51,313 bases of DNA, taken from positions 1 through 51,313 of the forward strand of contig JAPLTV010000036.1 of assembly GCA_026397955.1 (NCBI GenBank), written 5' to 3'. A program made the translations under genes and the position numbers. Positions 48,578 to 51,313 of the stretch are shown piece by piece (within the stretch, counting starts at the first letter, position 1; every line of letters begins with the position of its first letter). Origin of the DNA: Verrucomicrobiota bacterium. GTDB taxonomy: Bacteria > Verrucomicrobiota > Verrucomicrobiia > Opitutales > UBA953. Below the pieces are notes generated by a model that worked only from the letters and a program-made list of their open reading frames with translations, searched no databases and was not told the origin of the DNA.

Positions 48578-49480
48578 TCACTCGGCCAGGCCGACGATCG
48601 AGCGGGCATAGGCTCGCGCATCGAAGGGCTGGAGGTCAGCCGGTTGCTCGCCGACGCCGATGAAGCGGACCGGGACGCCGAGTTCGCGGACCACTGCGAC
48701 AAGCGCGCCACCGCGGGCGGTGCCGTCGAGTTTGGTCACGATTAGGCCGGTGAGGCCGACGGCCTCATGGAAGATGCGGGCCTGTTCAATCGAGTTCGCG
48801 CCGAGTGAACCGTCGATGACGAGCCACTTCTCGTGCGGTGCACCAGGGTGCGCCTTGGTCGTCACGCGGACGACCTTGCGTAATTCTTCCAGGAGGTGGG
48901 CCTTGGTGTGCAGGCGGCCCGCGGTATCGAGGATGACGACGTCCACTCCGCGCGCGACGCCGGCCTTGGCCGCATCGAAGGCCACGGCGGCAGGATCGGC
49001 GCCGGCGGCACCGCCGATGACTTCGACGCCCAGCCGGTCGGCCCAGGCGGAAAGTTGTTCGCCCGCGGCGGCACGGAAAGTATCACACGCGCCGAGCAGG
49101 CAGGTCTTACCATCTTCGCGCCAGCGCCAGGCGAGCTTCGCGGCGGTGGTCGTCTTGCCGGCGCCGTTGACGCCGAGGAGCATGATCACGTGGGGCTTGG
49201 AGAAGGCGGGCGCGGCGATGGTCTCGCCGCCGAGCGCTCGCACAATACTTTCGGCCGCGGCTTCGGCTGGCGAGGTCTTGCGCAGCGCGGCTTCCGACTT
49301 CCAAGCCGAGCGCGCGGCTTCGACGACTTCGTCGGCGGTGGCCGGACCGAAGTCGGCGGTGATCAGTCGCTCACGTAGTTGCTCGGCCGACTCGGCGTCC
49401 ATCGGACGGGCCAGTAGGTTGGCCACGGCCTCAGCCGTGCGGCTCAGGCCGGACTTCAGACGTTCGAAGAAGCCCGCCAT
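48578..49480 (-). CDS. ftsY: signal recognition particle receptor FtsY
   Basis: This 300-residue GTPase docks the SRP-ribosome complex at the membrane. The NG domain is complete: G1 GVNGAGKT at residues 103-110, DTFRAAAGEQLSAWADRLG, DTAGRLHTKAHLLEELRK (G3), TKLDGTARGG (G4) and FIGVGEQPADLQPF (G5). The acidic A domain of E. coli FtsY is absent, as in many bacteria, and the protein begins almost directly with the N domain (FFERLKSGLSRTAEAV). It starts 4 bases after the nusB stop, so the two are probably co-translated. Confidence 0.96.
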   Translation of the reverse strand: MAGFFERLKSGLSRTAEAVANLLARPMDAESAEQLRERLITADFGPATADEVVEAARSAWKSEAALRKTSPAEAAAESIVRALGGETIAAPAFSKPHVIMLLGVNGAGKTTTAAKLAWRWREDGKTCLLGACDTFRAAAGEQLSAWADRLGVEVIGGAAGADPAAVAFDAAKAGVARGVDVVILDTAGRLHTKAHLLEELRKVVRVTTKAHPGAPHEKWLVIDGSLGANSIEQARIFHEAVGLTGLIVTKLDGTARGGALVAVVRELGVPVRFIGVGEQPADLQPFDARAYARSIVGLAE

Positions 49481-49484
49481 CGGT

Positions 49485-50267
49485 TCAGCCGCCTTCGGCT
49501 TTGCGTGGGTCGCGACCCAATTCTTCCTTATAGCTGTCGAGGATACCGTTCACAAAGCGCTTGGATTCCTCGGTCGAGAACTCCTTCGCGATGTCGACGG
49601 CCTCGTTGATGCTGACGACCGGCGGGATGTCCGTGCGGCGCATCAGCTCGAAGATGGCGATGCGCAGGATCGCGAGGTCGACGCGCGCGATGCGGCCGAA
49701 GGCCCAGTTCTTGGCATACTTGCCGATGATCTCGTCAATGAGCGCGAGGTCGCGGATGACACCTTGGATCAGTTCCTCGGCGAAGGCGTAGTATTCGCGG
49801 GGCTGCGGACGTTCGGAGAAGAAGTCGAAGAGGCCCGTGACCATGTCGGCATGGCGTTGGACTTCCCAGGAGCAGAGGAACTGCATGGCGGCCACGCGGC
49901 CGTCATGGCGACGGTTGCGCTTCGCGGGCGGCGCGGCGGGGTCCGGTATGATCGGCTCATCGGGAGCGACGATGGCGATTTCGATGCCGGCCGGGATGTT
50001 GTGGCGGCGGAAGGCGTCGACGGTCTTCGGGCTGGAACCGATGATCTCAATCAGGCGGCGATGGCTGCGGATCTCCTCGCGGAGCGCCGTCCGGGGTTCC
50101 TCAACCTGCGAAGGGAGCGGGAAGGGGCCGGAGATACGGGCGCCGGTGCCGGCGACGCTGGCGATGATGTCGGCCGCGGTCTGGTCCGCCATGCGGTAGT
50201 CGACGCCCTTAATCCGGATACGGATTTTGGCGCGCGCGGAGGCGGAAATGGGAGAGTCGTTATCCAT
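49485..50267 (-). CDS. nusB: S10 (NusE)-like domain fused to NusB antitermination factor
   Basis: This 260-residue protein is nearly twice the usual NusB length (130-160). Residues 118-258 are a normal NusB: DGRVAAMQFLCSWEVQ at the start, VDLAILRIAIFELMRRTDIP and VSINEAVDIAKEFSTEESKR, ending FVNGILD. Residues 14-100 match ribosomal protein S10/NusE: KIRIRIKGVDYRMADQT, TGARISGPFPLPS, EEIRSHRRLIEI, SPKTVDAFRRHNIPAG. The S10 segment between PLP and EIR, the ribosome-inserting loop, is about 10 residues shorter than in E. coli S10. A Pro/Ala-rich linker (101-117) joins the two. NusB and S10 form the heterodimer that binds boxA RNA for antitermination, so this is a natural single-chain version. 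The one frame is unbroken. It lies 3 bases after ribH and 4 before ftsY. Confidence 0.9.
   Translation of the reverse strand: MDNDSPISASARAKIRIRIKGVDYRMADQTAADIIASVAGTGARISGPFPLPSQVEEPRTALREEIRSHRRLIEIIGSSPKTVDAFRRHNIPAGIEIAIVAPDEPIIPDPAAPPAKRNRRHDGRVAAMQFLCSWEVQRHADMVTGLFDFFSERPQPREYYAFAEELIQGVIRDLALIDEIIGKYAKNWAFGRIARVDLAILRIAIFELMRRTDIPPVVSINEAVDIAKEFSTEESKRFVNGILDSYKEELGRDPRKAEGG
49968..50228 (-). other. S10/NusE-like domain coding segment within nusB
   Basis: This marks codons 14-100 of the fused gene. Alignment by eye with E. coli S10 gives roughly 30 identities over about 87 positions: IRIR, DQ, TGA, GP.PLP, EIR.H.RL and KTVDA are all shared. The loop inserted into the 30S head is reduced to about 10 residues. 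Confidence 0.85.
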
Positions 50268-50270
50268 CGG

Positions 50271-50807
50271 TCAGTTCTGGGCGAAAGGTTCCTGGCCGCC
50301 GCGCTTGCGCTCCTCTTCCTCGACCTGGTCGAGGCGTTCGCCGAGCGTGATGCGGTGGCGAGCCATGGTGAGGGCGGCGTGTGCGAACTCGGTACCACGG
50401 TCGAGCGTACCCTGGCAACGGGCGACAGCCTGCTCGCGGTTGTTGGTGACGACGATACCGTTGATCACCGGGACTTCGGAGCGGATGGCCGCATCCTGCA
50501 GGGCCTGGGCGGTCGAGTGGGCGATGATCTCGTGGTGCGGGGTGTCGCCGGCGATGACGACGCCGAGAGCGATGATGCAGTCGTAGTCGCCCGTCATGGC
50601 CGACATGTAAGCGGCGAAGGGGATCTCGCCGGAGCCGGGGACGGCGAGCTCGACGATGGAGCCGGCGGGGACGCCCGCAGCCCGGAGGCCTTTGATGGCG
50701 TTCTGCTTCAGGGCCTGGACCAGTTCCGTATTATAGCCTGCCGACACGATGGCGAAGCGAAGTTCGGCGCCGTCGATGGCGTCAGGAGTGGGCTTGTCTA
50801 GGCTCAT
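50271..50807 (-). CDS. ribH: 6,7-dimethyl-8-ribityllumazine synthase
   Basis: This 178-residue enzyme joins the ribityl-aminouracil and dihydroxybutanone phosphate to make lumazine, the penultimate step of riboflavin synthesis. Features are RFAIVSAGYNTELVQAL, VPGSGEIPFAA, ALGVVIAGDTPHHEIIAHST with the catalytic His91, and PVINGIVVTNNREQAVAR. The frame continues upstream to 50855, but MSLDKPTPDAIDG at 50807 is the better start. It lies 69 bases downstream of the ribB-type gene and 3 bases before nusB, the common ribH-nusB pairing. The C-terminus has an extra charged tail (EEEERKRGGQEP). Confidence 0.94.
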   Translation of the reverse strand: MSLDKPTPDAIDGAELRFAIVSAGYNTELVQALKQNAIKGLRAAGVPAGSIVELAVPGSGEIPFAAYMSAMTGDYDCIIALGVVIAGDTPHHEIIAHSTAQALQDAAIRSEVPVINGIVVTNNREQAVARCQGTLDRGTEFAHAALTMARHRITLGERLDQVEEEERKRGGQEPFAQN

Positions 50808-50876: not shown

Positions 50877-51313
50877 TTAGAACGGAACCTGCTCGACGAT
50901 CTCAAGGGCGTAACCACCAAGCCCCACGACCTTGCGCGGGTTGTTCGTGATGAGCCGAATGCGACGGAGTCCAAGATGCGAAAGGATCTGGGCGCCGATA
51001 CCGTAGTCGCGCGCGTCCATGGCGCCGAGGCGGATGCCGGATTGGTCGGCCTGCACGCCGCCGAAAGGCTGGGTGACGTGGACGATCACGCCGCGGCCGG
51101 CCTTGGCGACGGCTTCGAAGCTGCAGGCGAGCGAGGCTCCCGCGCCGAAGGCGCTGCCACGGAAGAGGTCGCCGAGCATGTTCTCGCGCTGGACGCGCAC
51201 GAGCGTGGGCTTCTCGTCCGGCGGGCCGTGGGTGAAGACGAGGTGCTGGCGGCCGTCCGGCAACGAGCGGTATACGCGCAGGGGGAACTCGCCCCTCGCC
51301 GATTGGAAGGGGC
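50877..51313 (-). CDS. RibBA-type protein, degenerate GTP cyclohydrolase II domain (5' truncated by window edge)
   Basis: The last 146 codons of a gene are present; the frame is open to the window edge, so no start is called. The visible part aligns with the GTP cyclohydrolase II domain that follows DHBP synthase in RibBA. GEFPLRVYRS and VRVQRENMLGDLF lie at its start, and MDARDYGIGAQILSHLGLRR, ITNNPRKVVGLGGYALEIVE near its end. The zinc-binding cysteines, normally spaced as CDCG plus an upstream Cys after the Gly-Asp-x-Phe, are missing (GSAFGAGASLACSFEAV has only one Cys). The RGxGI catalytic segment is also gone. This domain is therefore probably inactive, as in so-called RibBX proteins, leaving the upstream DHBP synthase part, outside the window, as the likely active enzyme. 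It heads the ribH-nusB-ftsY-aroB series. Confidence 0.85.
   Translation of the reverse strand, partial: PFQSARGEFPLRVYRSLPDGRQHLVFTHGPPDEKPTLVRVQRENMLGDLFRGSAFGAGASLACSFEAVAKAGRGVIVHVTQPFGGVQADQSGIRLGAMDARDYGIGAQILSHLGLRRIRLITNNPRKVVGLGGYALEIVEQVPF

Follow-up and report, generated by a model that had tools for sequence, protein, structure and literature searches.

Ribosomal protein S10 serves twice, as a component of the ribosome and as NusE. In E. coli, the NusB:NusE pair binds boxA RNA and is thought to contact RNA polymerase via NusG (PMC4642336, PMC5725501). The contacts between the two proteins are reported to involve H15, R16, D19, and V26 of NusE and Y18, L22, E75, and E81 of NusB (PMC8341153; E. 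coli numbering is used here for residues of both proteins). The NusE surface that binds NusG-CTD and RNA polymerase is described as lying opposite NusB (PMC4642336), and NusB-bound S10 is reported to be barred from the ribosome (PMC10931766). The S10 loop contacts 16S helix 31, and antitermination is reported to proceed without it (PMC8249722, citing Luo 2008). Free NusE is reported to be very unstable, and a loop-deleted variant has been used instead (PMC4642336). Work in E. coli also connects Nus factors with the folding of rRNA and the assembly of ribosomes (PMC5725501).

The fused gene and its genome

In the window, which is the whole stretch of 51,313 nucleotides that was analyzed, an open reading frame with an ATG start encodes 260 residues without an internal stop. 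The features of this locus are as follows:

49485..50267, minus strand: fused gene of 260 amino acids comprising an S10-like domain, a linker, and NusB (ORF and Pfam)
49971..50222, minus strand: S10/NusE-like domain, residues 16-99 (Pfam PF00338, rpsJ alignment, AlphaFold)
49899..49970, minus strand: inter-domain stretch, residues 100-123 (between the two Pfam matches)
49530..49898, minus strand: NusB domain, residues 124-246 (Pfam PF01029)
50271..50807, minus strand: ribH (lumazine synthase), upstream neighbor (TIGR00114, above cut-off)
48578..49480, minus strand: ftsY, downstream neighbor (TIGR00064, above cut-off)
50877..51311, minus strand: 3' part of a ribBA-like gene that leaves the window (NF006803, E = 4e-27, partial, below cut-off)

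The fusion gene sits between ribH and ftsY, with a 3-base gap from the ribH stop to its start codon. The ribBA-like gene lies farther upstream; ribBA encodes butanone-phosphate synthase/GTP cyclohydrolase II. In E. coli, ribE (lumazine synthase) is likewise located immediately before nusB.

The Pfam Ribosomal_S10 model matches residues 16-99 with 45.7 bits (cut-off 21.2; E = 8e-12), and the Pfam NusB model matches residues 124-246 with 110.8 bits (cut-off 23.1; E = 8e-32). The NCBIfam nusB equivalog TIGR01951 also scores above its cut-off (129.6 vs. 88.35), and the other nusB equivalog, NF001223, falls under its own (88.2 vs. 131). Both bacterial rpsJ equivalogs match the fusion with E values of 1e-17 and 1e-15 but remain below their cut-offs (NF001861, 64.2 against 85; TIGR01049, 57.5 against 72.75). 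The expected halves of the fusion are also matched by S10, loop-deleted S10, and NusB chains from the PDB.

The AlphaFold model of the window protein, built from 57 sequences, has a mean pLDDT of 85.3 and a pTM of 0.84. The predicted S10 half comprises strands at residues 14-21, 44-57, 66-76, and 95-100 and helices at residues 24-41 and 80-87, and the NusB part consists of seven helices. Residues 100-123 are rich in Pro and Ala, followed by KRNRR, and are predicted to be mostly unstructured up to residue 118. Foldseek retrieved 3w1y_C (target TM 0.86) and 3d3b_J with the S10 half, and 3imq_A (0.89) and 3d3b_A with the NusB half. The initial annotation had claimed an S10-like domain and a full NusB in one unbroken frame; the reading frame and the Pfam matches confirm this, and the S10 half both exceeds the Ribosomal_S10 threshold and folds as S10 in the prediction (AlphaFold, Foldseek). 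With profiles above cut-off and the corresponding folds, the window protein belongs to the NusB family and its S10 half to the uS10 domain family. The fusion lacks the full ribosomal loop and the equivalog score of rpsJ, and a separate rpsJ exists.

By our reading, a pTM of about 0.55 would be expected for two loose domains of such size, and the value of 0.84 thus suggests that the model sets the S10 domain firmly on NusB. On the basis of this one AlphaFold model and of residue patterns, the S10 domain is predicted to dock on its own NusB in cis. The model of a relative, computed from a shallow alignment of 21 close sequences (pLDDT 55, pTM 0.38), lends no support. We regard the fusion as probably a covalent NusB:NusE heterodimer with a built-in, non-ribosomal NusE.

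Two S10 matches were found in the source genome (G000; 126 contigs, 93.6% complete): the fusion, with 43.6 bits, and a normal rpsJ, which scores 123.3 bits and lies on contig C38 between frames read by eye as fusA and rplC. A lack of any other rpsJ, which according to the initial annotation would have made the fusion the ribosomal S10, is thus not the case here. The fusion is also the only NusB match and hence the sole NusB detected in this genome, which also encodes NusG, NusA, and two proteins of the inositol-phosphatase (SuhB) family. For a second NusG-like protein (L188; contig C86, 10463-10879), the best-scoring family is RfaH (TIGR01955, E = 3e-25), although below its cut-off, and the genome may possess a specialized NusG paralog beside the NusE-like fusion.

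Kept and altered residues in the two halves

The initial annotation described the loop reaching into the 30S head as cut to about 10 residues. It is indeed shortened, by 9-10 residues in most species and by 10 in the window protein, but 14 residues remain between P43 and R68, a stretch of 24 residues in E. coli. Among 35 of the 37 fused sequences (L061 and L062 were excluded from the counts over this set), this stretch has 14 residues in 28, 15 in six, and 7 in one, that of genome G019. The deleted residues correspond to E. coli positions 50/51 to 59, and 17 residues are missing in G019.

As a reference, 29 rpsJ sequences from the genus and the order were aligned, giving 65 positions with at least 90% conservation; in 12 fusion S10 domains, 25 of the 65 are kept, 11 are weakened, and 29 are lost. 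The losses include the 9-10 loop residues and the A29-K30-R31 stretch, and D14, R16, D19, Q20, G38, P39, R68, H70, and R72 are among the residues kept. R16 and D19 are unchanged in all 12 aligned domains, and R16, D19, and Q20 are kept in all 35 fused sequences counted; the docking residues R16 and D19 are in line with the suggested fit of the sequence to the NusB:NusE complex. Of the other contacts, V26 is relaxed in the fusion domains, and H15 lacks conservation even among the rpsJ sequences of the genus and order. The fusion S10 domain shares a mean of 47% identity with genus rpsJ over ungapped columns.

These losses bear on a possible role as a ribosome-assembly factor, in which the S10 domain would visit the nascent 30S subunit in place of S10. 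E. coli Nus factors are tied to rRNA folding and ribosome assembly (PMC5725501), but the fusion lacks some of the loop known to touch 16S h31 (PMC8249722), residues 29-31 are lost as well, and S10 bound to NusB is reported to be barred from the ribosome (PMC10931766), making this role very improbable.

For the NusB half, 55 unfused NusB rows (52 distinct after removal of three repeats) were compared with 37 fused rows (33 distinct sequences). In the 55 rows, 39 columns are at least 95% invariant, of which 33 are fully kept in the 37 fused proteins; with the 52 distinct rows, the corresponding numbers are 40 and 34. Tyr18 is by far the strongest exception. This position is Tyr in 52/52 distinct unfused NusB proteins, and in the 37 fused proteins it is Cys in 25 (including the window protein), Tyr in 11, and Val in one, i.e., changed in 26. 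The next exception, I104, is kept in 31 of the 37. Along the tree, the Tyr18 position changes twice, in G019 and, separately, in the window protein's clade, suggesting that this residue of the NusE pocket is the one invariant broadly released after fusion, in two events. The release would be compatible with an interface held together by the tether or with one disfavoring free S10. For exclusion of free S10 the support is indirect: the Tyr18 change speaks for it, and the retention of NusB-binding residues in genus rpsJ (R16 in all rows, D19 in all except L013) speaks against it. The E81 position is Asp in all 37 fused proteins. NusB E75 was considered as an interface signal and rejected, as its column also varies in unfused proteins (14 changes on the tree).

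The S10 domain could also be pictured as a separate arm for NusG or RNA polymerase, with ribosomal S10 filling the NusB groove. The inter-domain stretch is about 20 residues long, and the NusE face for NusG-CTD and RNA polymerase is reported to point away from NusB (PMC4642336), both of which would suit such an arm. We consider it distinctly improbable, since the NusB-facing helix residues are among those kept, the groove residue Tyr18 changed after fusion, and a pTM of 0.84 is high for two loose domains. These observations are instead in line with the covalent heterodimer.

Selection was estimated from 24 fused sequences (276 pairs, of which those with 0.05 < dS < 1.5 were kept). The median dN/dS is 0.34 in the S10 domain (270 pairs), 0.25 in the linker (215 pairs), and 0.14 in NusB (275 pairs). 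In close pairs, dN of the S10 domain is far below dS, for example 0.015 vs. 0.574. The S10 domain is under purifying selection that is looser than that on NusB and on ribosomal S10.

Distribution and evolutionary history

The fusion was found in 38 of the 55 genomes of the genus, a member of the freshwater-lake Opitutales. Both parts lie in one frame without a stop in 36 of them; the 38 also include G019, with a diverged fused form and an even shorter loop, and G025, in which the fusion is divided over two contig ends. Nine genomes carry a bare NusB at the same locus (G062, G074, G018, G073, G006, G071, G066, G061, and G057). In the remaining eight (G005, G008, G020, G022, G031, G035, G036, and G068; 62-91% complete), no nusB was detected, and the Pfam model was also negative. 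A separate rpsJ was also detected in 31 of the 38 fused genomes, and the seven in which none was detected are 61-85% complete.

A contig search kept the best 80 of 547 relatives, of which 24 (L103-L126) cover the S10 and NusB parts alike; these 24 come from the same lineage. Named relatives are Opitutales genomes from lake metagenomes, such as UBA953, UBA957, BS8, and BS10. UBA953 is also mentioned for a Lake Erie data set (PMC12697132). In the order sample (373 genomes), no S10 and NusB in one open frame were seen outside the genus among the matches listed, the lowest query starts there being 58 (G253, with an internal stop) and 85-88 (G339, G118, and G247). In the phylum sample (387 genomes), G000 and G019 alone have two S10 matches; 369 genomes have one, and 16 have none. 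No fusion was thus seen beyond the genus among the matches listed for the order sample or in the phylum sample. Among 109 loci around nusB, some of them overlapping, S10-like sequence is present in 24, all fused, and in none of the other 85, which include the G025 fragment at a contig end (L133) and several loci that stop near the gene. As 24/24 S10-bearing loci are fused, no separate or decayed S10 copy stands beside an unfused nusB in this set.

The open frame in 36 genomes rules out a chance arrangement. The same architecture with the same neighbors in many species rules out an assembly artefact or a joining by frameshift, and this constancy likewise led us to reject a mobile element. A scan of viral contigs gave 22 pattern matches and no relative, and none of 78 plasmid records or 28 phage records had one place covering 80% of the fusion protein.

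To place the fused and bare forms, RibH, NusB, and FtsY from 65 loci were used for phylogenetic analysis (FastTree and IQ-TREE). Fused and bare members of the genus form a single clade (FastTree 0.98; IQ-TREE UFBoot 82). Eight bare genomes are sister to eight fused ones (UFBoot 100), G062 represents a second bare lineage with weak placement (UFBoot 38), and G019 appears as the first branch (UFBoot 62). The trees favor one gain and two losses, although in simple counts three separate gains are equally costly. Apart from G019, the fused S10 domains form one group (support 1.0), and their loop deletions lie at a common site; from this we infer a single gain, with G019 as its least certain member. 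The S10 domain tree itself is weak, with a long fusion branch, and places the G019 domain apart from the rest of the fusion domains. This placement, and the higher identity of the G019 domain to E. coli S10 (0.44) than to genus rpsJ (0.38) or to other rpsJ of the order, sit poorly with the idea that rpsJ of the lineage itself gave rise to the fusion in one gain. In 11 of 12 fusion domains, genus rpsJ exceeds other rpsJ of the order in mean identity, by a few points only, and in one the two are level; the S10 copy was perhaps derived from the lineage's own rpsJ.

G019 (L072, 1663-2409) combines the deepest placement, weakly supported, with the shortest loop and its own Tyr18 to Val change in NusB. 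The eight bare-NusB species of the main loss clade (L064-L071) have small assemblies of 1.2-1.5 Mb (66-96% complete), which hints at loss of the S10 half in the course of genome reduction. The two losses, the main one in this small-genome clade, suggest that the benefit of the fusion depends on lifestyle, and the S10 half appears dispensable over evolution, as it was lost in two lineages.

Such losses would be expected if the fused S10 were an eroding passenger, with NusB still using free ribosomal S10. The S10 half has also diverged much more quickly than rpsJ (mean identity 0.61 across 12 fusion domains vs. 0.94 across genus rpsJ), a strongly diverged form is retained in G019, and genus rpsJ keeps the docking residues. 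Erosion is nevertheless unlikely: the frame is open in 36 genomes besides the G019 form, dN is well under dS between near relatives, R16 and D19 are intact in 12/12 domains, and NusB Tyr18 is altered only in fused proteins.

Proposed function and relation to known systems

As a covalent NusB:NusE heterodimer, the fusion may have arisen and may act as follows. A copy of S10 would have been joined in front of nusB in one lake Opitutales genus, most likely once. The S10 part would then have shed part of the 30S-head loop together with other ribosomal constraints and retained the helix residues that dock on NusB. Folded back onto its own NusB, the S10 domain would form a pair that binds boxA RNA in rRNA leaders and reaches RNA polymerase through NusG, like NusB:NusE. 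Both halves would be supplied 1:1 from one gene, and ribosomal S10 would be left to ribosomes. This function is drawn from homology and residue patterns; by analogy with the E. coli system, we infer boxA and NusG binding, an antitermination or rRNA-folding role, and independence from free S10.

A search was performed for boxA and 16S leaders. With the Rfam family, 16S was found in 0/13 genus genomes (17 searched), a weak result, as 5/14 control genomes were also missed. With a universal 16S primer pattern, it was found in 0/33 genus genomes (39 searched), and assemblies of only 8 or 10 contigs were no exception. As no 16S sites were found in the genus, its rrn leaders were unreadable for boxA. 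The only 16S leader obtained is from G329, a member of the order outside the family with a bare NusB, in which a boxA-like AGCTCTTTGAAA lies upstream of 16S; at that looseness, four matches were found in the G329 locus against 2.98 expected, i.e., chance level. The motif TGYTCTTTR has no occurrence in the window.

It is possible, and proposed here tentatively, that antitermination has been uncoupled from the ribosomal S10 pool by a private NusE within NusB, with the interface drifting as Tyr18 was lost. If true, rRNA transcription would neither compete with ribosome assembly for S10 nor sense the S10 level. A lineage that splits the two jobs of S10 would make it testable whether S10 sharing is a regulatory link or an accident, and the bare-NusB sister species in the same genus provide natural controls. 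The fusion also offers a single-chain, 1:1 NusB-NusE for structural work.

No description of a natural S10-NusB fusion was found among the open-access papers listed, in agreement with the initial statement that none was known. The fusion is a genuine variant of the NusB:NusE system that spans the lineage and is undescribed within the reach of these papers.

Compared with the NusB:NusE pairs of E. coli and Aquifex, the fusion has the same two folds, keeps R16 and D19, and occurs in a genome with NusG, NusA, and SuhB-family proteins. Unlike these pairs, it is one polypeptide, its S10 copy is separate from the ribosomal one, its loop is shortened, and NusB Tyr18 is changed in most members. It resembles the engineered loop-deleted S10 (NusE-delta; 3d3b, 2kvq, and 2mew, chains from crystal and NMR work) in being an S10 without the full ribosomal loop, paired with NusB. 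The engineered variant loses more, however, with 82 residues in 2mew vs. 103 in E. coli S10, whereas the fused S10 is natural, covalently joined, and in most species shortened by just 9-10 residues. With rpsJ/uS10, it shares a homologous fold and the moderate identity to genus rpsJ given above, but differs in the cut loop, in 29 of 65 rpsJ-conserved positions, and in the attached NusB.
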